Of a stretch of DNA of 42,604 nt, positions 22,477 to 32,437 are shown in pieces. Location of the stretch: NCBI RefSeq assembly GCF_030068455.1, contig NZ_JAQOSQ010000030.1:1-42604 (forward strand). The letters are read 5' to 3'. Numbering within the stretch: the first letter of the stretch is position 1; every line of letters begins with the position of its first letter. The stretch is from Roseofilum casamattae BLCC-M143. Its GTDB lineage: Bacteria; Cyanobacteriota; Cyanobacteriia; Cyanobacteriales; Desertifilaceae. A program made the translations under genes and the position numbers. The notes under the pieces were generated by a model that saw only the letters and a program-made list of their open reading frames with translations, did not search any database and had not been told where the DNA came from.

Positions 22477-23481
22477 ATGAGGCAGCTTCTAGAATATATT
22501 CTCCAAAATAAAGAATGGTTATTCAGTGGTTTAGGTCTTGCCACGTTGTCAGCAATTTTCTGGCTCTTCCAGCAATCAATAATAAGTTTTAGGAGTGCAA
22601 AGAAAGGAAATATCAAACAAGGGTACAGTGGAGATATTAGAATTGTTGGGCCTCGTGCATCCGGTAAGACAGTTTATCTTGCAGCATTAGCAGATTGGCA
22701 TAATTTAGGTAATGAGAGTCCAGTAAATTCAGTTGAAGCTATTAATCAAGCAGCTAGAAGATTGATTGATTACTCCCGCGACATTCTTGCAAATGGACGG
22801 CAGCTCGGACCAACTCATGCATTTGATCCACATAACATACCTCATTATGAATTATACATTGAACTTATATTTAATTCCTACTTTTGGCCAGTACATTCTA
22901 TTTTCAGAAGACGTATCAAATTTAGTGTAAGTTTCCAGGATTATAGCGGTGAAATATTTCATGAAATGGCACGAAAAAATGAAACTAACAATTATGTTAT
23001 TAATAATTTTCTAGATGTTTGTGCCTTGTCTTCTAAATTTATGATTATTATCGATCCCTTAATTATAGATGACGAAAATGATTTAGAATATGCATTAGCG
23101 ATCAAAAATTATTTTCAGGAATTAGAGAATCGTTTTATAAGAGGAGATCGAAGTCTAAGTGAGTCCAGAGCTGCTGTAGTGCTTAGTAAATGCGATCAAT
23201 TAGAGGTTTGGAAACATAGAAAAAATATTATGGCTTTTTTTAAGAATAAATTCCCTCGTTCGTACAAAGTGTTGCAACAAATCAATGCCAAGGAGCAATG
23301 TTCGATCGCTTATTTTTCATGTTCTGCATTTGGTATGATTGGTAAACCACCACAACCCAATGCAATTTCCCTACGTGGAGGTTACGCTTTTGTTCTAAAA
23401 GATTCAAGTTCATGGCAACCTTTTGGACTAGTAGCACCTATCTACTGGTTATGTACCGGTCGAAGGATAAGAGACTTTTAG
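22477..23481 (+). CDS. Membrane-anchored P-loop GTPase-like protein (double-GTPase-like), next to the dnd genes
   Basis: 334 residues. An N-terminal hydrophobic helix (WLFSGLGLATLSAIFWLF, about 14-31) probably anchors it. The GTPase motifs are G1 GPRASGKT (58-65), G3-like DYSG (155-158) and G4-like SKCD (237-240); SCSAFG (281-286) may be G5. The C-terminus PFGLVAPIYWLCTGRRIRDF recurs, as I recall, in DO-GTPase/TRAFAC-type immune GTPases. The gene is AT-rich and has no full GCGATCGC, unlike its neighbours, a sign of transfer. It converges on dndD and follows a broken gene. Role in defence is inferred from context and family resemblance, not shown. Confidence 0.7.
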   Translation: MRQLLEYILQNKEWLFSGLGLATLSAIFWLFQQSIISFRSAKKGNIKQGYSGDIRIVGPRASGKTVYLAALADWHNLGNESPVNSVEAINQAARRLIDYSRDILANGRQLGPTHAFDPHNIPHYELYIELIFNSYFWPVHSIFRRRIKFSVSFQDYSGEIFHEMARKNETNNYVINNFLDVCALSSKFMIIIDPLIIDDENDLEYALAIKNYFQELENRFIRGDRSLSESRAAVVLSKCDQLEVWKHRKNIMAFFKNKFPRSYKVLQQINAKEQCSIAYFSCSAFGMIGKPPQPNAISLRGGYAFVLKDSSSWQPFGLVAPIYWLCTGRRIRDF

Positions 23482-23575
23482 TAGTATAATGTGTTTCAGG
23501 TATTGGCAACCTGGCGAGAAAATCGTCGCAACACTCAGCCTCGGAAACATATCCCCGTCTAACCCTTTATCAAAT

Positions 23576-23607
23576 AACCTCTGCGCTCTCCGTGCCTCTG
23601 TGGTTTT
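23576..23607. repeat. Interspersed short repeat (CTCTGCG...CTCTGTGGTT type)
   Basis: The intergenic sequence AACCTCTGCGCTCTCCGTGC followed by CTCTGTGGTTTT is of a kind I recall as a common interspersed repeat in cyanobacteria and related genomes. It lies between the convergent GTPase and dndD genes. Genome-wide copy number would confirm. Confidence 0.45.
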
Positions 23608-23620
23608 CCTCCTACTCCAC

Positions 23621-25591
23621 CTAAAACTCAAAATACCCTTCCTGAAACGTCGTCTGCCCCGTGCTAGCATCATAAGCAAGTCGATACTCCCGCGCGATCG
23701 CCTCCTGATTCCGTAAATTCTCTACTTCAGTTTGTGCGATTTCTGTATCCGTAGACAGCAAAATAACTTGGCGAGCAGCACTGGGAAAGTAGCGCTCGAT
23801 CAAGTTCTGACGGTGAGAAGAGTCCAGGCGACCAAGAGGAGTATCAATTGCGACTGGAATTTGGCGACCGGAAACGCGCGCTAGTCCCCACAAAAATGCG
23901 ATCGCCAACAGTTGTTTTTCTCCCGCAGATAATCGATATTTCGGCAAAAACTTCCCCTCTAAATCATATAAGGATAAGCTAAAATTGTGGGTATCGATAA
24001 CCACGCGATGCACCAGATCGGATTTATGTAAGAGATAGCGAAAACATTCGGTGACTTGGTTTTCTAATTTGTTAAGTTTCTTCAGAGTGAGCTTTTCCCG
24101 AAACTGTTCCAATATCGTTTTTACTCTGGCAATAGAGCAAACCATATGAGCCGAGTTTTTGCGTTCGAGAAAGGTTTCTGTATATTTCTTGAGGTCTTTC
24201 TTTCCGTCAGCCAGCGCGCGATCGATTTCTTTCAGTTTCCGCTGTTTTTCATCCCTATCCCCTTTCAGTTTAACCCATTTTTCCTCAGCTTTCTTCATCG
24301 TATCAATCAACGCTTGGTATTGTTCTGGGGAAGCCGCAGCGGCAATTTTGCGTTCGGTATCCGTTAGCTCCGAGTTCAGTTTTTCCAGATATTCCCATTC
24401 TACGTTAGCTTTTTCTACTTGTGCGGGAACCTTATAAGCAATGAGTCGTTCTAAGTTCTCTAAAGTTTCCGGTTTTGCATTCAACCAGGTATTATCCGCA
24501 GATAAAATATCTTCAGCGAGAGTTTCCGAATCTTCCTGGAGAAAATCGGCGACTTGCGATGTGGTATCATCGGGGAGCGATAGTGTTTGCAAATAGTCGA
24601 GTAAACGGCGATCGCGCTCTTGAATGCGATCGCGACTTATCCGCGCTTTCATTGACTCTCTCTCAGCTTTCCCCTGGGTTAATCCAGATTGCAATAACGA
24701 TTCGATTAACGCGAGAGGCAAAGAAGCAGATGCCAGCTTAACCAGTATATCGCGAGTTTGCTCGATTTTGTTGGCGATCGCCTTCCGTTGCAAATCGAAT
24801 TGACTTTTCTCTGCTGCCAGTTTCCCCCCTTCCGTCAGAAACTTATTCTGCGAGACATTATATCGTTTTTCCGCAATTTCTAAATTCTTATTCATTTTCT
24901 CAATAGCAGCAGCAACATTCTCTCGCTCCTGCTTCAAGCGATCTGACTTTGCTTCAATTTCATCTAAGTCCGAAAGCTCATCTTTATCGGCTAGTTCTTT
25001 CTGCTGTCGGCGCGATAAAATATCGAGATCGATATCTAATTTCTCCGCTAACTCCAATCCCAATAACGATTGAATTGCCTCTACAACTACTGGCGGAGGC
25101 GCATCCATTTCTGCCAGTTCTTTCACTTGCTCGCCATCAAAAAGAAATAGATTAGAAATTCCCAAAGGTAGCAAATTTTCAATATAGTCGTCCCAAGTTT
25201 CTTCTAGAGCGCGATCGGGAAATTCCCCACTGAGAATACCGAGAGTATCCTTACTATCTTCCTTCGTCCAATAGCGAATAATCCGAAACTCACTTTCTAT
25301 GCCACTATTAACAACACCGATCGATAACTCCAGGCGCGTTTTTTCGTCCGGGTTAGCATTACGGTTAACGCATTGTTTCAGAAACTTAGTATAACTGAGA
25401 TTGCCTCTCGTCGAACATTCCGCACGATGTCCGTACAACACCAGACGAATGGCATCCATCAGCGTTGTCTTTCCCCCACCATTCATTCCACCTAATAGAA
25501 TAATTGGTTGCGATAATTCCGGACGCAAATTTAAGACTTGCCTCCCTAAATACGGGCCGAAGTTTTCTAATACGAGTTCCAGAAAAATCAT
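23621..25591 (-). CDS. dndD: DNA sulfur modification ATPase DndD (SMC-like)
   Basis: 656 residues. The N-terminus MIFLELVLENFGPYLGRQVL is followed by Walker A GGMNGGGKT (34-42). A long coiled-coil middle follows, then the ABC signature LSAGEKQ (554-560) and Walker B IPVAIDTP (about 578-585) with a D-loop LGRLD. This SbcC/Rad50-like layout and the LFLFDGEQVKELAEMD segment are typical of DndD, which uses ATP in the DndCDE complex that inserts sulfur into the DNA backbone. It lies 18 bases downstream of dndC on the same strand. It contains several GCGATCGC sites. No dndE follows it, which is unusual. Confidence 0.93.
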   Translation of the reverse strand: MIFLELVLENFGPYLGRQVLNLRPELSQPIILLGGMNGGGKTTLMDAIRLVLYGHRAECSTRGNLSYTKFLKQCVNRNANPDEKTRLELSIGVVNSGIESEFRIIRYWTKEDSKDTLGILSGEFPDRALEETWDDYIENLLPLGISNLFLFDGEQVKELAEMDAPPPVVVEAIQSLLGLELAEKLDIDLDILSRRQQKELADKDELSDLDEIEAKSDRLKQERENVAAAIEKMNKNLEIAEKRYNVSQNKFLTEGGKLAAEKSQFDLQRKAIANKIEQTRDILVKLASASLPLALIESLLQSGLTQGKAERESMKARISRDRIQERDRRLLDYLQTLSLPDDTTSQVADFLQEDSETLAEDILSADNTWLNAKPETLENLERLIAYKVPAQVEKANVEWEYLEKLNSELTDTERKIAAAASPEQYQALIDTMKKAEEKWVKLKGDRDEKQRKLKEIDRALADGKKDLKKYTETFLERKNSAHMVCSIARVKTILEQFREKLTLKKLNKLENQVTECFRYLLHKSDLVHRVVIDTHNFSLSLYDLEGKFLPKYRLSAGEKQLLAIAFLWGLARVSGRQIPVAIDTPLGRLDSSHRQNLIERYFPSAARQVILLSTDTEIAQTEVENLRNQEAIAREYRLAYDASTGQTTFQEGYFEF

Positions 25592-25609
25592 GAAATGAGG
25601 CTAAAATAG

Positions 25610-27256
25610 TTAGTCGGTTTGAGAGGAATGAGGAAACTTGAAACTTCCCCAATTTAGAGATAACTGTTCTGTCGCCGGTGGGGGTTCGGGTTCCGGTTGA
25701 TTATCTGGATGGTTCGGATCGGCTTTTTCCGGATTTTCAATTAAATCTTTCACTCGTCCTGCATTATTATCTTGCATTGCATGATTCATTGCACGGCGAT
25801 AATGTGCTTCTTCAATAGCATCATCTTGCGTCCGAGAACTGGTTTTAAAACAGTTAGTTAACGCCTCATAAATCCCCGAACGACTGCTCTTATTTTGATA
25901 CTGACGTTCCGTATCCAGGAGTTTTCGCAATAGCTCGAACTCCATGGGGTCATTATTGGTGACTTCTTCGAGAATACTCCATTCATCCAAACCGAGCAGA
26001 GTGCGATCGCCATCCGGACGGCGATCGATAAATTCCTCTCCCGTCACTTCCTGATAAATGCGAGGCAAGCTGTCATCAAACTCGTGCTTTTCCTCCAACC
26101 AAATTCGCCGAATTTCGCTCAACTCTTCCGGAGTAATTAAAGTAATATTGCCCATTTTCGGAGGCGCGGTTGCACGAACTTGCACCTGTGCTTTCAATAG
26201 TTTCCGTAACAAATACTCGCGCCATTCCTTCAGATAAGGACCGGGAATAGGTTCCACAGAAGTTTGATTCTTTTTTCCTTCCACTTTGCGCTCAAAGAGT
26301 TGAACATTGCCATGGATTCGCCGGAAATCTCGTTTATCGCGATCGTGTTTTGTATCCAATTCATTGCGAATATCTAGAAGTGGTTGCAACCATTCTTTCT
26401 CTTCATCATTTTGAATCATTGCCTCCATCGACTTATCTTTATTTACCAATGTACAAACCCAACAGCCAAAGCGTGAATCCCCACAGCTTGGAGTTGAAGT
26501 ATCGACAACCAGAGGACATTCATTATCCGCCGTCGCTCCTCGATACATCGCAAACAGATCTTTATTATCTATTCCCCAAGGATTCTCCCATTGCATCAGA
26601 TACATCCAGACTTCATCCGTTCGCCAATCTTCAATGGGACTATAAATAAAAGAATTAGGCAAGCAAGGATTCGGACTTAATCGCTCGCGGATTCTATTCA
26701 CCTCATACTTTTCAATCACCCGAGCACGAGCCGTACTCTCAGCCTTACGAACTCCTAAAGCAACAATGGTCTCACCATAGGTTCTAATGGCTTCTCGCAT
26801 AAAAGCATTGACAGGACTAATTTTCATTCTATCCGTACACCACCGGAATCCTTGTCGAGGTGCTGGATATCCTTTACCAATTAAACACACCCAGAATGTC
26901 TCCTTGAAGTTAGGATGAAGTAAATGAGCTTCAATGGGAATATTTTGTGTGGTTGCTGAAGAAGTTATCTGTTGTAGTGACTGAGTTACCCAAGCTGAAA
27001 CAATTGGATTTTCTACCAATGTATCGGTTGTAATCACATGAATAGTCTTGGTCCGGCGCTCTTTTGGTAGTTTAGCTAAGGCATTCCAGATTAGCTGTAA
27101 CACCACTGTTGAGTCCTTGCCCCCACTATATCCTATAATCCAAGGAATTTCGTCTAGGCAATAAAGATTTTGAATTTCTTGGGTCAGTTTCTCAATGGTG
27201 GTGATAAACTCATCTACGGTACGATGCGGTAATAGTGAAGACTTAGTCGCTGTCAT
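25610..27256 (-). CDS. dndC: DNA phosphorothioation sulfurtransferase DndC (PAPS reductase-like)
   Basis: 548 residues. The ATP pyrophosphatase P-loop SGGKDS is at 44-49 in WIIGYSGGKDSTVVLQLIWN. RWCTDRMKI (Cys140), and Cys258, Cys265 and Cys268 in SCGDSRFGCWVC, are the likely iron-sulfur cluster ligands of DndC. The C-terminus is acidic and proline-rich (NQPEPEPPPATEQLSLNWGS). DndC activates the DNA phosphate and passes sulfur, delivered by DndA or an IscS cysteine desulfurase, to DNA. No dndA is in the window, so an IscS-type enzyme elsewhere is expected. Confidence 0.94.
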   Translation of the reverse strand: MTATKSSLLPHRTVDEFITTIEKLTQEIQNLYCLDEIPWIIGYSGGKDSTVVLQLIWNALAKLPKERRTKTIHVITTDTLVENPIVSAWVTQSLQQITSSATTQNIPIEAHLLHPNFKETFWVCLIGKGYPAPRQGFRWCTDRMKISPVNAFMREAIRTYGETIVALGVRKAESTARARVIEKYEVNRIRERLSPNPCLPNSFIYSPIEDWRTDEVWMYLMQWENPWGIDNKDLFAMYRGATADNECPLVVDTSTPSCGDSRFGCWVCTLVNKDKSMEAMIQNDEEKEWLQPLLDIRNELDTKHDRDKRDFRRIHGNVQLFERKVEGKKNQTSVEPIPGPYLKEWREYLLRKLLKAQVQVRATAPPKMGNITLITPEELSEIRRIWLEEKHEFDDSLPRIYQEVTGEEFIDRRPDGDRTLLGLDEWSILEEVTNNDPMEFELLRKLLDTERQYQNKSSRSGIYEALTNCFKTSSRTQDDAIEEAHYRRAMNHAMQDNNAGRVKDLIENPEKADPNHPDNQPEPEPPPATEQLSLNWGSFKFPHSSQTD

Positions 27257-27298
27257 GACAGAGGGTCAGTGTTATGGGGATTGCTCGTGTGATATAGT

Positions 27299-27311
27299 TA
27301 CTGTTACAGTA
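27299..27311. promoter_or_regulatory. Palindrome in the dndC-dndB divergent promoter region
   Basis: TACTG-TTA-CAGTA is a perfect 5-bp-arm palindrome, followed by CAGTA again at 27351-27355 just at the dndB start. It is in the 98 bases between divergent dndC and dndB, where a regulator is expected. DndB itself is reported to bind and repress dnd promoters in other bacteria. The site is not the exact published palindrome I recall. Confidence 0.4.
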
Positions 27312-27354
27312 CAGAAGCTGTTGTTCATCAAGACTTTCTATTGTACTCTCCAGT

Positions 27355-28539
27355 ATGCCTGAAGATAATCAAAATATTGCCGATGGGACTCTACCTCTTG
27401 ACCAAGCTCTCTATCCCTACTTCGCTCAACATAGTAAAGATAGGTGTTATCCTGCATTAGTTTGTCATCAGGGTAACCGAGAGATGGTACAGATTAATGT
27501 ACCTGCTTATGATATCCCTACTCTTTTACAAAGCAAACCCTCTATCAACAACGATCCAGATTCTGGTAAAAATCGTCCAGTAGTGGCAGAACATGCCGGG
27601 GAGATTAAAGAGTATATTCGAGAACGAGTTAGAAAGAAGAAGCCCTGGGTATTAGGAACGATAACAGCTAATATCGACCCTTCTGAAATTCAAGTGATTA
27701 GGTTGGGTCGAGGTATGGCAATAGCGGTTATTCCCAGAAATGTCAAATTAGATATTACCGATGGGCAACACCGAGTTCGTGCCATTGATGAATTAGCGAG
27801 AAGTGAAGAAAATACATTAATTGGTAATGATGATTTCCCGATTACCTTAGTTCTAGAAGGTGACTTTAAGCAATGTCAGGTAGATTTCCGCGATATGGCA
27901 CAAACGCGCCCGCTCGCACAATCGCTCTTACGATCCTTTGGCGAGTATGAGGGAGTTATTGGGATAGTCAAAAACTTGATAGAATCTGTGCCAATGTTTG
28001 CGGGCAAGACAGAAAAAATCAAGAAAACTCCATCACCAAAGCAAAAGTGTATATATACGATTAACTATATTGGCAATTTCGTTAGCTGTGCTTTTGCCGA
28101 CGATCCTAAAAAACAACTCAAAGACCATGATGTCGAGCAATCTTCTGAGGCTTTGACTGCGTGTTGCAATCAATTCTTTTCACAATGTAACAATACTAAA
28201 TACATTTTTGAACTCAACTATGCTGAATTAACGTCAGAGGACATTATCAAGTTTCAAGGAAATTGTATTTTGACCAAAAGTGTTGGGTTAGAAGTCTTAG
28301 GGCGTTTACTATACAATACCTATGATGAAATTAACGGCACCTTCGATCTAGAACAAGTAGCTCGGCTTTCCCAACTGGATTGGTCCATGAGTAGTCCTTT
28401 GTGGCGTGATAGTTTAGTTAGAGTCGATCCAAATCCCAAAAATCCAGCTCAACCCTACAAGATGTCTCCTGGTAGAGGTGGTGTAAAACTAGCTGTTTCT
28501 TATATAAGACGAGAGCTTGGATGGTTGGAAACGGTCTAA
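27355..28539 (+). CDS. dndB: DNA sulfur modification protein DndB (DGQHR domain)
   Basis: 394 residues with the defining DGQHR (136-140, in LDITDGQHRVRAIDELARSE). It also has family segments ARTRPL-like DMAQTRPLAQSLLRSFGEYE and SPLWRDSLVRV. DndB is a dispensable regulator that affects how often DNA is modified. Here it is divergent from dndCD rather than first in the dndBCDE operon. It is AT-rich with no full HIP1 octamer, unlike dndC and dndD, which have several. It could have been acquired separately. Confidence 0.9.
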   Translation: MPEDNQNIADGTLPLDQALYPYFAQHSKDRCYPALVCHQGNREMVQINVPAYDIPTLLQSKPSINNDPDSGKNRPVVAEHAGEIKEYIRERVRKKKPWVLGTITANIDPSEIQVIRLGRGMAIAVIPRNVKLDITDGQHRVRAIDELARSEENTLIGNDDFPITLVLEGDFKQCQVDFRDMAQTRPLAQSLLRSFGEYEGVIGIVKNLIESVPMFAGKTEKIKKTPSPKQKCIYTINYIGNFVSCAFADDPKKQLKDHDVEQSSEALTACCNQFFSQCNNTKYIFELNYAELTSEDIIKFQGNCILTKSVGLEVLGRLLYNTYDEINGTFDLEQVARLSQLDWSMSSPLWRDSLVRVDPNPKNPAQPYKMSPGRGGVKLAVSYIRRELGWLETV

Positions 28540-28594
28540 ACTTTAGTGAAGATGTAGTTGAAGTAATAGTAGTTATAATTTATGCTACTATTAC

Positions 28595-29332
28595 TCAATT
28601 ACTGTCTTTAAGTTGACTAGTCTCTTGCGATCGCGCGGCTAACTCTTGCACAAAAGCTTGATGCTCGGTGGAATTTATCCCCTCTTGCAAAACAGCCAAC
28701 ACTCGTTGCATATCGCCTTGCCGCATTGCCGATACATCCAGGCACAAACCGGGAAAGACTTGGGAGCAGATAACGCCATCTGCATTAGGCAACAAAGAAA
28801 TATAGTCGCCGTTATCCAAATGAAACCAATCAATTCGTTCCTCAAATATCTGCCAAACGATATATTCTTGAATACCATTGCGTCGATAAGCGCGCTGTTT
28901 ATCTCCTAAGTCGATCGCCGCACTACTCGCTGCAATTTCTATAACTAATTCTGGCGCACCATCGATATACCCATCGGCACTAAAACTCGAACTTCCCCCA
29001 CTTTCTGGGCTAATTAACAATACTCCATCCGGTTGCGGTTCGTTATCGATATCCAAACGTACCGTCGGTTCAATTCCTATCCTGACTTGGGAGGTAGCAA
29101 TTTTATAAGTCCACAACCAACCCATCATATCTCCGTGAGGTTCGGCATGGGGTTCAAAGCGTAATGGTGATGCCATATAGACTATTCCTTCGATAAGTTC
29201 CGCTTTTTTCACCTCTGGCATAGCAGAATAACGACGCTCGAACTCTGGGGAGGTGAGACGATCGCCATTTTCCAAAGGTGGCAGTGTTTTCTGAGGAGCG
29301 AACTGAGAGGTTAGCGATCGCGACAGAGTCAT
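28595..29332 (-). CDS. Uma2-family (DUF820) restriction endonuclease-like protein
   Basis: 245 residues. The PD-(D/E)xK-type core is spread over DNEPQPDGVLLISPES, GAPELVIEIAASSAAIDLGD and KQRAYRRNGIQEYIVWQI. The order D...PD...ELVIEI.S.S...D...K...Y is that of Uma2 proteins, which are abundant in cyanobacteria. It probably binds or cleaves nucleic acid, but role and target are unknown for most members. It lies between dndB and the Crp-like gene, on the minus strand. I cannot tell whether it works with the dnd system. Confidence 0.85.
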   Translation of the reverse strand: MTLSRSLTSQFAPQKTLPPLENGDRLTSPEFERRYSAMPEVKKAELIEGIVYMASPLRFEPHAEPHGDMMGWLWTYKIATSQVRIGIEPTVRLDIDNEPQPDGVLLISPESGGSSSFSADGYIDGAPELVIEIAASSAAIDLGDKQRAYRRNGIQEYIVWQIFEERIDWFHLDNGDYISLLPNADGVICSQVFPGLCLDVSAMRQGDMQRVLAVLQEGINSTEHQAFVQELAARSQETSQLKDSN

Positions 29333-29389
29333 CTTTTCAGCCTCAATGGTTGAGATACTGTATCTTATCTTAACTCTAACCCTCTCATA

Positions 29390-29430
29390 GTTTTAAAAAA
29401 AAGAAAATAGTTTTAGAAAACTCTATAATA
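29390..29430 (+). promoter_or_regulatory. Shared promoter cassette, copy 1 (before Crp-like gene)
   Basis: A 41-base stretch runs from GTTTT through an A-tract and AGTTTTAGAAAACT to TATAATA. TATAAT at 29424-29429 is a perfect -10; the -35 position has no consensus, so an activator may be needed. AGTTTT-AG-AAAACT is an inverted repeat over the spacer. 33 of 41 bases match the cassette at 30824-30864 with identical spacing. Confidence 0.65.
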
Positions 29431-29552
29431 CCTTCAGCATTCGATCCCCGACCTCATGACCGAACTCCTGAAGGGATCTCGATATTTTTTGTTGCGTTAT
29501 GCTACCTTATCTTTAGTATTGTACAAAAGCTTTAGTTTATCTAGTCTAACAG

Positions 29553-30242
29553 ATGTATGCAACTATCGAGCAACTCGCAACAATAGATGTCTTTTCTAAT
29601 CTTGACTCTACAGTCTTAACCCAGCTTGCTGATGTCGCCAGAATACATTGTTATCAGCGGGGTAAAATTCTGATTCATGAAGGAGATCGACTTCCAGCTC
29701 AGTTTCATGCAGTGCTTGAGGGAAAACTGCTCGTCCAAAAAATAGCTGAATCTGGAAAAGAGACAACATTGCGTCAACTTCCGGCTGGGGAAATGTTTGC
29801 CGCACCTGCAATATTTGGTGATGGTATTGCTCCGGCTACTGTCAAGGCATTAAACGATTCACAGATTATCACTATTGATAAAACAATTCTCCTCGGTCTC
29901 ATCCAAGCTTCCCCAGAAATTTCTTTACATATTTTGCATTGCTTTAATCAACGACTCCAGGAGATGCATCAAACCATTCATGGTTTAATTTCAGAGAGGG
30001 CAACAGTTCGACTCGCACGTTTAATTGAGTATATGGCTCAACAATATGGGGTTAAACCTACGGAAGAGGGAGTTCAGTTAAATATGAATCTCCCTCATCA
30101 GCAAATGGCGAGAATGGTAGGAATAACTTATGAAGAATGCGTCCGAATTGTGAGAAAAGACTTGGATAAAATTGTTCGCTATAATCGCGGTGGCAGGATC
30201 GTCATCAACGATCTTTCCACCTTAAGATCCATCACATCATAA
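29553..30242 (+). CDS. Crp/Fnr-family transcriptional regulator
   Basis: 229 residues. The N-terminal cyclic-nucleotide-binding-like beta barrel is seen in HCYQRGKILIHEGDRLPAQF and FAAPAIFGDGIAPATVKALN. A dimerisation helix and a winged helix-turn-helix (NLPHQQMARMVGITYEECVR, about 180-200) follow. No cysteine cluster for an Fe-S sensor is visible, so it is not FNR itself; it may bind haem, NO, 2-oxoglutarate or a nucleotide. The convergent downstream gene encodes a globin, so a role in NO or oxygen response is plausible. Its promoter matches that of the DGQHR gene at 30920. Confidence 0.9.
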   Translation: MYATIEQLATIDVFSNLDSTVLTQLADVARIHCYQRGKILIHEGDRLPAQFHAVLEGKLLVQKIAESGKETTLRQLPAGEMFAAPAIFGDGIAPATVKALNDSQIITIDKTILLGLIQASPEISLHILHCFNQRLQEMHQTIHGLISERATVRLARLIEYMAQQYGVKPTEEGVQLNMNLPHQQMARMVGITYEECVRIVRKDLDKIVRYNRGGRIVINDLSTLRSITS

Positions 30243-30313
30243 TTGCTCGATCGCGATCGATCTACCCTCATCAATCTGTTTTCACTATTTTCCTGGAAAA
30301 TAATTGTCGCCTA

Positions 30314-30718
30314 CTAATCTTCTGCCGCAAGCATAACTTCGGTAATCGATGAATACGCCTCAGTCCAAGCCTGTTCGATCTCCGGAGTCCATTGCTCCTT
30401 CAGGACCATCGACATGGTCTTAATGAGATTCATCCCTATAATCGGATAATGATTGGGTAAAACACCATATGCTACGTGTCGAGTGGCTAAGGCTTTTAAA
30501 GCCTCTGTTAATTTATCTGGCTGTTTGAGATTCTTGACTATTAATGCCAAAGATGCAAATAGTTTTTTCGCTTGTTCCTTCATGTCTGTAGATTTAAACA
30601 AGGGTTTAACCTGAGGGTAATCTAAAAACAGATTGCTGTAAAAATATTCCGTAAATTCACTTTCGCGATCGCGCAAAAGAGCAAAACTAGTTTCGAGAAG
30701 TTGAGCGTTTAAGGACAT
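30314..30718 (-). CDS. Bacterial single-domain globin
   Basis: 134 residues. LLETSFALLRDRESEFTEYF is the A-B region (with the B10 tyrosine), FKSTDMKEQAKKLFASLALI the E helix region, and LATRHVAYGVLPNHY the F-helix region with a probable proximal histidine. The length and pattern fit flavohaemoglobin-like/Vitreoscilla-type single-domain globins rather than truncated ones. It binds oxygen or NO. No reductase domain is fused. It converges with the Crp-like gene. Confidence 0.88.
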   Translation of the reverse strand: MSLNAQLLETSFALLRDRESEFTEYFYSNLFLDYPQVKPLFKSTDMKEQAKKLFASLALIVKNLKQPDKLTEALKALATRHVAYGVLPNHYPIIGMNLIKTMSMVLKEQWTPEIEQAWTEAYSSITEVMLAAED

Positions 30719-30823
30719 TGTCTTTCAAACCCGTGTAACTCTTACATCACCTAGTTTGCCAAGTTGAAAGCGGAATGACTATGAGCTACCTCAATAAGAG
30801 CCTATGGATCTAACTCAATACTG

Positions 30824-30864
30824 GTTTTTAAAAAAAGCGACGAGTTTCAGAAAACCTTATAATA
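30824..30864 (+). promoter_or_regulatory. Shared promoter cassette, copy 2 (before second DGQHR gene)
   Basis: This matches the cassette at 29390-29430 in 33 of 41 bases, including the GTTTT/A-tract start, GTTTCAGAAAAC inverted repeat and perfect TATAAT (30858-30863). The gap from GTTTT to -10 is 34 bases in both. The start of the DGQHR gene is about 57 bases downstream. Confidence 0.65.
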
Positions 30865-30919
30865 GCTGCGGAATGCAATCCCCTACAGGGAGTCTACGAC
30901 CATCGCCCCCATCATAAAA

Positions 30920-32437
30920 ATGACCGACCCAGTCCCCCAACTGCTATCTCGCCACAACAACCAACTCCTCGTCCAACCCACGCAAATGGGCGAAACTCCA
31001 GCCTACCTAACCTCCGTCACCCTAGAATGGCTCGCCAACCGAGTCCGCTTCGCCTATCAATTACCCCTGTTTCAACCCAAATTCGATCGCAAAACCCATA
31101 ACACTATCCGCGACGCCGAAACCATCGAGCAACTGCAACAGCGTCCCCTGGACTGGTCTCGCCAAGCCTCCCTCGCCCAATATCTCGCCATCCGTCCCCA
31201 CCACAAATTCTCCCCCATCCTCGCCGTCATCAGCCCTCCCTGGGTAGACGATCCTAACGCAGCAGAATGGGATCTCGACGATCGCGCCACTCAGTCTGCA
31301 GCCGACTATACCGCCCTCGATCCCGACCTCGGACTGCTCGACTTACCTCCCACCGTCCCCCTCTTCGCACTCGACGGTCAGCACCGACTCATGGGCGTGC
31401 AAGGCCTGATGGAACTGATCCGCAGCGGTTCCCTGACCAAATACAAAAAGAACAAAAAACCCACCGGTTCTGTCCTCACCGCAGAAGACCTGCAACAACA
31501 CTACAACGTCTCCCCAACGCGCCTGCAACAGCTCTCCCAAGAAAAAATCGGCATCGAACTCATTCCCGCCGTCATCCCCGGAGAAACCCGAAATCAAGCC
31601 AGAAACCGCATCCGCTCTATCTTCGTCCACGTCAACCTCATGGCCGTGCGTCTCAGTGCCGGGCAGCTCGCACTGCTTAACGAAGATGATGGCTTTTCTA
31701 TTGTCGCTCGGCGCATTGCCATTCACCATCCTCTATTCAAAGACGAACCAGACCGCTCCCCGCAAGTTAACCTAGACAGTGCCACCGTCTCCGCCAAGTC
31801 CACCGTACTCACCACCCTGCAAGCCCTGAAAGACATGGCCGAGCGCTACTTACAGCATCCCTATCCCCACTGGAAACCCCAAGAAAAAGGACTCATCCCC
31901 CTGCGTCCGGAAGACGAGGAACTGCAAGCGGGAATTGATACTTTTGCGACTCTCTTCGACTACCTCGCCACCCTACCCAGCTATCGATCGCTGCAAGATG
32001 GCTTTTCTAGTACGGAGATGCGCCAGTTTAGCTTTGAACGCCACGACGGTCGGGGAAATATTCTCTTTCGTCCCGTCGGTCAAATAGCTCTGGCGCGCGC
32101 TCTCGGTCTTTTAGTCTACCGCCACCAACTATCCCTAGAAGCAATATTTGCCAAACTGCGCGCTTATGATGAACAAGACGGCTTCAGTCACATCGATCGC
32201 CCCCAGTCTCTCTGGTATGGCGTTCTCTTCGACCCAAATAAGAAACGCATCCAGGTTGCCGGACGGGAGCTAGCCGCGCGCCTCTTAGTTTATCTGGTCA
32301 ATGACTGCGAAGACAAACTAGAACGAGGGAGGCTGCGACACGACCTTGCGGTGGCGCGCAGCTTCGAGGGGCGATCGCTCAATTTTGATGGTAAATGGGT
32401 GAAACCCAAAGATGTGGGAATGCCAGCTACTCTCTAA
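30920..32437 (+). CDS. Second DGQHR-domain (DndB-like) protein, 505 aa
   Basis: It carries DGQHR at 152-156 in PLFALDGQHRLMGVQGLMEL, like DndB, but is 110 residues longer. It has an extra middle (KYKKNKKPTGSVLTAEDLQQ) and a C-terminal part not seen in dndB. Other DGQHR features include RNRIRSIFVHVNLMAVRLSA and the LSAGQLALLNEDDG segment. Some DGQHR proteins are called phosphorothioation-associated, so this could be an alternative regulator or a substitute. The GC-rich, C-ending codons and lack of HIP1 differ from dndB. It follows the shared promoter cassette, so it may respond to the Crp-like protein (inference). Confidence 0.85.
   Translation: MTDPVPQLLSRHNNQLLVQPTQMGETPAYLTSVTLEWLANRVRFAYQLPLFQPKFDRKTHNTIRDAETIEQLQQRPLDWSRQASLAQYLAIRPHHKFSPILAVISPPWVDDPNAAEWDLDDRATQSAADYTALDPDLGLLDLPPTVPLFALDGQHRLMGVQGLMELIRSGSLTKYKKNKKPTGSVLTAEDLQQHYNVSPTRLQQLSQEKIGIELIPAVIPGETRNQARNRIRSIFVHVNLMAVRLSAGQLALLNEDDGFSIVARRIAIHHPLFKDEPDRSPQVNLDSATVSAKSTVLTTLQALKDMAERYLQHPYPHWKPQEKGLIPLRPEDEELQAGIDTFATLFDYLATLPSYRSLQDGFSSTEMRQFSFERHDGRGNILFRPVGQIALARALGLLVYRHQLSLEAIFAKLRAYDEQDGFSHIDRPQSLWYGVLFDPNKKRIQVAGRELAARLLVYLVNDCEDKLERGRLRHDLAVARSFEGRSLNFDGKWVKPKDVGMPATL

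Follow-up and report, generated by a model that had tools for sequence, protein, structure and literature searches.

A probable dispersed DNA phosphorothioation system in Roseofilum casamattae, with dndE on another contig and a second DGQHR protein as its probable regulator

Can a dnd locus in which dndC and dndD stand together, with neither dndE nor dndFGH beside them, still belong to an intact DNA phosphorothioation (PT) system, and if so, what controls it? The question is raised by a 42,604-nucleotide stretch of Roseofilum casamattae BLCC-M143 (NZ_JAQOSQ010000030.1), called the window below, which is the whole of contig C30 of its genome (G000; 5.1 Mb in 74 contigs, 98% complete). From the letters of this DNA, an original prediction had pictured a variant or decayed system, or one in which other proteins replace DndE. 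We consider it likely, from sequence comparisons, that the window holds the core of a dispersed PT system in which a second DGQHR protein, here named DGQHR2, acts as a DndB-type self-regulating controller through the palindrome GTTTTTAAAAAC. The answer bears on the role of PT in lineages without dndFGH, and a dndE that is displaced rather than missing removes a false exception; a dnd-specific DGQHR protein with a precise DNA site would moreover offer a way to learn how cyanobacteria set their PT levels. Published work is cited throughout from extracts of the papers named.

The two core genes are clear and adjacent on the minus strand, as had been predicted. The 548-aa product of dndC (25610-27256, minus strand), the PAPS-reductase-like sulfurtransferase component, scores 707.5 bits against TIGR03183 (cut-off 290.4) over model positions 2-446 of 447; it is the sole DndC match in its genome at E ≤ 0.001, and the closest named relative found, from Roseofilum halophilum, is 78% identical. 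The 656-aa product of dndD (23621-25591, minus strand), the SMC/RecF-like ATPase component, matches TIGR03185 from end to end (650.7 bits, cut-off 245.85, positions 1-650 of 650). The PADLOC library ranks a PbeC-named model first for this DndD (856.9 bits), ahead of DndD itself (726.6), possibly reflecting a confusion of names in that library for cyanobacterial DndD. Apart from the PbeC-named models for DndD, a weak match of DndC is to an SspD-named model (32.1 bits); PbeA, PbeB, PbeD and SspE are not among the PADLOC matches listed for the eight proteins of 22477-32437 (for DndD, the best 25 of 68).

As for dndE, a profile search bears out its absence from the window, with no match on the contig at E ≤ 1, but the genome-wide search shows that it is not truly missing. 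One strong gene, without stops, lies on contig C13 (1000-1329; PF08870, 145.7 bits) and also exceeds the TIGR03184 cut-off (125 bits against 71.85). A contig break as the source of this separation in the strain itself is ruled out, with dndD ending 23.6 kb inside its contig. A contiguous dndBCDE operon is thus absent here: a dndB-like gene diverges from dndC, and dndE sits on a separate contig, which is the variant arrangement that the original prediction had allowed for. Its two other suggestions found no support. Because dndE is present on C13, and near full length relative to its family model, nothing needs to replace DndE; and DndC, DndD and DndE all being near full length speaks against decay. 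The displaced gene matters because deletion of dndE abolishes PT in Salmonella (PMC9239217). The modification system therefore appears to be intact, with its genes dispersed and dndE elsewhere in the genome.

The separation is shared within the genus, dndE and dndC being on different contigs in all six Roseofilum genomes searched; in two of these (G005 and G008), about 4.9 and 7.7 kb of contig follow dndD, and a moderate distance between the two genes is possible there. Of the 10 genomes surveyed in the family, all have dndC and 9 have dndE. Across the order, for which we surveyed 291 Cyanobacteriales genomes and counted a gene as present when its score exceeded the family cut-off, DndE was found in 240 genomes and DndC in 226, with both in 217, dndC alone in 9, dndE without an above-threshold dndC in 23 and neither in 42. 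By hand count of assemblies that have no more than 10 contigs and both genes among the matches listed, dndE lies within ~8 kb of dndC in 21 of 28 and far from it in seven (G021, G047, G091, G103, G107, G125 and G219). It is in cis at 30 of the 59 named dndC loci with at least 5 kb of downstream sequence. Judged by gene content, C, D and E are intact in one genome and co-occur across the order.

The second, larger DGQHR protein had been expected some kilobases away, and it is there. DGQHR2 (30920-32437, plus strand; 505 aa), the probable regulator, lies 3.7 kb from dndC and scores 159.7 bits against TIGR03187 (cut-off 58.85) and 48.3 bits against PF14072 (cut-off 29.1). When the proteins of the window were compared with six-frame open reading frames of 80 other named dndC loci (E ≤ 1e-5), relatives of DGQHR2 were found at 58, to be set beside 67 for DndD, 33 for DndE, 28 for the dndB-like protein and 2 for Uma2, the absences of DndD and DndE being partly due to short contigs. 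DGQHR2 is present at 47 of the 61 dndC loci with at least 6 kb upstream and, after clustering, at 59 of 84 loci, in every case (59/59) on the strand opposite dndC. The distance between the two genes is at most 300 bp at 26 of 57 loci and greater at 31. Genome-wide, DGQHR2 occurs in 165 of the 291 genomes, and 156 of these have dndC over the cut-off; the other nine have partial or weak dndC matches, or a completeness of 93% or less. The pairwise distances of DGQHR2 correlate with those of DndC (0.83) and DndD (0.93) as closely as those of DndC do with those of DndD (0.84), and none of these values was reached in 300 permutations. Gene content and linkage thus indicate that DGQHR2 is a widely conserved partner of the dnd system. 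Its structure model (pLDDT 81.5, pTM 0.57) has a long, mostly helical C-terminal part. A sequence search of solved structures gave no match at E ≤ 1 for either DGQHR protein of the window, and no description of a cyanobacterial dnd-linked DGQHR protein was found in the open-licence literature searched.

The palindrome GTTTTTAAAAAC was first seen in the gap between DGQHR2 and dndC at several loci. It occurs exactly in 36 of 59 regions covering the 300 nt upstream of DGQHR2 and with one mismatch in 12 more, the window included, mostly starting ~80 nt from the DGQHR2 start codon. The 1.51 Mb of loci contain 38 exact copies, 37 of which, by hand count, are within 300 nt upstream of DGQHR2; consequently, the exact copies in 25 of 1024 control regions must be these sites viewed from neighbouring genes. 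The palindrome stays with DGQHR2 even where dndC is kilobases distant. In 23 dereplicated sequences, a set chosen for having the motif, the 12-mer is kept and its flanks vary. In 35 genomes assembled into few contigs, which may overlap in species with the named loci and hence are not a fully independent replicate, the 471 nt upstream of DGQHR2 contain the palindrome exactly in 17 and with one mismatch in 8, against 0.03 predicted from the genome-wide density. Eight of the few-contig genomes have a single copy, and in four of the eight it is upstream of DGQHR2. The pattern reversed, as a control, was counted 0-9 times per genome, so that a lone copy of GTTTTTAAAAAC elsewhere means nothing. The literature searched for GTTTTTAAAAAC returned only papers that are unrelated by title. 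No consistent offset was found for a second copy at fixed spacing in the dereplicated set; separately, several copies in genome G169 are paired 20 bp apart, perhaps as a repeat element or as part of a larger regulon.

The window itself carries a candidate operator-like site, GTTTTTAAAAAA (30824-30835, plus strand), which differs from GTTTTTAAAAAC at one position, starts 96 nt before the start codon of DGQHR2 and is the only site within one mismatch of the palindrome in the 42.6 kb. A TATAAT is found downstream of it, at 30858-30863.

How might such a system work? By analogy with the Dnd systems that have been studied, DndC, DndD and DndE would form one complex, which would replace an oxygen of the DNA backbone with sulfur at short motifs, the sulfur being donated by a cysteine desulfurase. 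Enzymes of this kind (DndA/IscS type) are general in bacteria. We infer that PT is made in this strain. DGQHR2, which like the dndB-like protein belongs to the DndB superfamily, is in turn probably a self-regulating controller, which would set the level of PT modification and repress its own promoter by binding GTTTTTAAAAAC. We propose self-regulation because DndB of Salmonella binds the promoter of its own operon and down-regulates it (PMC4507180), and because DGQHR/DUF262 proteins have been assigned to the ParB/sulfiredoxin superfamily, with DGQHR as a putative NTP-binding motif (PMC4619093, PMC11662687). In relatives in which DGQHR2 is directly divergent from dndC, GTTTTTAAAAAC falls in the gap that separates them and could act on both genes. 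In the window, where the site has one mismatch and DGQHR2 is 3.7 kb from dndC, control of dndC is more likely to be exerted by the adjacent divergent dndB-like gene, or else by DGQHR2 at a distance or in another way. Since the genes are so far apart here, and since three of the six genus genomes (G005, G008 and G009) have DGQHR2 and dndC on separate contigs, dndC cannot in general be repressed directly from a single shared site.

Besides this separation, several observations weigh against the reading as a whole, a dispersed PT system with a controller acting through GTTTTTAAAAAC. At least two mismatches to the palindrome are present in 11 of the 59 regions upstream of DGQHR2, and two loci of the same genus (L004 and L104) have two mismatches, at other positions. 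The site in the window is imperfect, the chance expectation for such a site being 0.27, and 24 of 100 shuffles contained at least one. Three genomes (G169, G269 and G285) carry 45, 118 and 139 exact copies, so that the palindrome is not specific to DGQHR2 there. DGQHR2 itself is not nearby at 14 of 61 loci and has no match in 70 of the 226 genomes with dndC, and is therefore not essential to the system. The co-occurrence tests take no account of shared ancestry, which makes their P-values descriptive. Neither DGQHR protein's structure model has a match in the PDB at E ≤ 0.001, the best E for DGQHR2 being 0.62. Finally, nine genomes with dndC have no dndE match; completeness is 88% or less for four, but the other five, among them G001 and G261, are rated 96-100% complete, and by these ratings dndE is probably truly absent from some genomes that have dndC.

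DGQHR2 could also be a reader of PT, an NTP-dependent recognition or restriction-side protein akin to the half of SspE/DndI that is DUF262; some other regulator would then use the palindrome as its operator. DndB has indeed been grouped with the DUF262 proteins SspE and DndI in the ParB-like superfamily, DGQQR being the NTPase motif of DndI (PMC11662687, PMC4619093). The length of DGQHR2 relative to the 394-aa dndB-like protein, its helical C-terminal part and its distance from dndC, which exceeds 300 bp at most loci for which it was taken, would also suit a reader. However, neither HNH nor any other nuclease family is among the matches of DGQHR2, only two histidines are invariant across 34 homologues, one of them within DGQHR, and its site tracks it irrespective of dndC, as autoregulation predicts. 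We regard a reader as unlikely, yet as an alternative to be taken seriously. That the dispersed genes are relics of a decaying system that makes no PT is very improbable. The genes are scattered, their surroundings differ among species of the genus and DndH was not found, but DndC, DndD, DndE and both DGQHR proteins have intact frames that cover most or the whole of their length in the model matches, and dndC and dndE persist in the family genomes as counted above. Least credible, to the point that we give it almost no weight, is a new defence island whose GTPase, Uma2, Crp and DGQHR proteins stand in for DndE and DndFGH. The proximity of these genes in the window would fit it, as would Uma2-like relatives at 8 of 84 dndC loci (window counted) under looser clustering. 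Against it stand the existence of dndE, the complete lack of relatives of the GTPase, Crp and globin proteins at the 80 other loci, where Uma2 has the two already given, and flanks that include housekeeping genes.

The controller reading leaves open a place for a restriction side. Of DndF, DndG and DndH, only DndH (TIGR03238) was looked for across the whole genome, and nothing there reached its cut-off of 50 bits (best score 12.9). Nostocales are reported to lack dndFGH in the extract of PMC8569181. The neighbourhood survey points to candidate restriction-side partners that a search based on dndFGH misses. Near dndC in relatives are genes named by NCBIfam as the TIGR04095 helicase, TIGR04062 dnd_assoc_4 and the TIGR04096 putative methyltransferase, along with a second DndD-like ATPase that falls under the DndD cut-off. 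The TIGR04095 'dnd restriction' helicase (dnd_restrict_1) matches elsewhere in the strain's own genome at E 4.3e-188, with a score of ~626 bits as estimated by comparison with listed rows (cut-off 600). Strong matches, for which the limit of E < 1e-120 was our own choice, are present in 219 of 226 genomes with dndC and in 24 of the 65 others. A dispersed restriction side of this kind, the helicase elsewhere forming a full modification-restriction system with the modification genes, is compatible with DGQHR2 as controller and is possible, if on the unlikely side. The restriction role of TIGR04095 comes from the annotation of the family name, and strong matches occur also in two genomes (G100 and G143) without a dndC or dndE match. 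At L036:163-2442, moreover, the helicase gene adjoins a gene that resembles lexA by eye, a pair that recurs at several loci and hints at a link to DNA damage.

A further candidate is a ~320-aa SBD-HNH-like nuclease seen at L104:6748-7767 (plus strand), L038:8984-9979 (plus strand), L049:641-1618 (plus strand) and other loci. The L104 copy scores 119.6 bits against NF045808, 'phosphorothioated DNA-binding restriction endonuclease', under the cut-off of 180. The nuclease clusters at 30 of 84 dndC loci, 23 copies being near full length; of its best 40 genome matches, counted by hand, 31 are within ~4 kb of dndC or DGQHR2, one is on another contig and eight are undecided. In a published survey (PMC7461809, in the part extracted), fewer than 3.6% of enzymes of this type lay close to dnd genes. 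The strain's own genome has no match to this nuclease. Several copies appear to be split in two and others have a stop inside the match, some perhaps at the very end (genomes with such copies include G002, G004, G065, G098, G156 and G284), as though an active nuclease next to dnd came at a cost in some cases. As a broader proposal, which we put forward tentatively and with more doubt than belief, Cyanobacteriales would have an epigenetic DNA-sulfur system that is part of the core genome but has its genes dispersed. It would be governed by DGQHR2, a dedicated protein of the DndB superfamily that, in contrast to DndB of Salmonella, would act via GTTTTTAAAAAC, and it would be paired with the TIGR04095 helicase and, in many species, with an SBD-HNH nuclease beside dndC, not with dndFGH.

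How much of this is new? Varied and disordered gene orders without dndFGH have already been published for the dnd systems of cyanobacteria, whose form has also been suggested to be the ancestral one (PMC8569181). The system described here resembles the solitary cyanobacterial Dnd of that account in its equivalog matches for DndC, DndD and DndE, in the failure to find DndH, and in a presence throughout the family that is consistent with vertical inheritance; it differs from it, as far as the extract describes it, in its unlinked dndE, in its dndB-like gene, which is divergent and not a TIGR03233 protein, and in the extra DGQHR2 with its own site. With Salmonella DndB (PMC4507180) the window's dndB-like protein shares the PF14072 superfamily, the DGQHR motif and a gene position at the dnd promoter region, but its score is far under the DndB equivalog cut-off, and the Salmonella operator, TACG-N10-CGTA, contrasts with the cyanobacterial candidate GTTTTTAAAAAC, which is upstream of a different family member. 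DGQHR2 has the ParB-like superfamily and a DGQxR motif in common with DndI/SspE, the DUF262-HNH nickases that sense PT (PMC11662687), but no HNH domain match. NCBIfam TIGR04172, 'DNA phosphorothioation-associated DGQHR protein 1' (DGQHR_dnd_1), is likewise a dnd-associated DGQHR protein other than DndB, but neither DGQHR protein of the window matches the model at E ≤ 0.01. The dispersed arrangement is therefore a variant within an already published kind, and DGQHR2 with its palindrome is the part that is apparently new to the literature searched.

The dndB-like gene (27355-28539, plus strand) does run opposite to dndC, as had been noted, diverging from it across a 98-bp gap (27257-27354) that presumably holds the promoters of both. 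Its 394-aa product is not a canonical DndB: it scores 49.3 bits against TIGR03233, far under the cut-off of 328, and matches PF14072 (267.8 bits, cut-off 29.1) and TIGR03187 (65.2 bits, cut-off 58.85). Close relatives (E < 1e-100) are present at 18 of the 80 loci, in all 18 on the strand opposite dndC. One relative (L018) has a true DndB in addition (411.6 bits), on the dndC strand. The structure model of the protein (pTM 0.61) has the ParB-like PadC (6ryk) as its best PDB match, with a Foldseek probability of 0.98 and an E of 0.048. Various inverted repeats were seen in the gaps between dndB-like genes and dndC, none of them common to all loci compared. A third DndB-like protein is encoded elsewhere in the strain's genome (G000:C1:407498-408679), 44% identical to that of the window, and similar copies are found in G005, G006 and G009.

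The remaining genes around the core are most likely, judging from their failure to recur, unrelated to the dnd system. They comprise a DO-GTPase2-like GTPase gene (22477-23481, plus strand; PF19993, 30.8 bits, cut-off 27), which converges on dndD as described before and whose product has, by eye, a hydrophobic N-terminal segment; a Uma2 family gene (28595-29332, minus strand; PF05685, 94.8 bits); a gene for a Crp/Fnr-type regulator (29553-30242, plus strand; PF00027, 59.6 bits); and a globin gene (30314-30718, minus strand; PF00042, 75.7 bits), which had escaped the earlier description and sits between Crp and DGQHR2. None of the four recurs beside dndC in stretches from nine genomes of the genus and family (E ≤ 1e-10), and with the counts from the 80 loci we rejected them as partners of the system. 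Two outcomes had been named beforehand as telling against the original prediction, a dndE gene elsewhere and a lack of conserved linkage of the other genes to dndCD; a dndE gene was found elsewhere, and linkage is lacking for the GTPase, Crp, globin and, but for two loci, Uma2, whereas DGQHR2 is linked at most loci. The flanks of the window hold guaA, cbiD, a photosystem I accumulation factor and two tRNAs, so that the locus is not an obvious mobile island. Uma2 genes, by the same comparisons, are common in these genomes and not tied to dnd, and one further protein cluster of the 84-locus clustering (cluster 17) also looks Uma2-like by eye.

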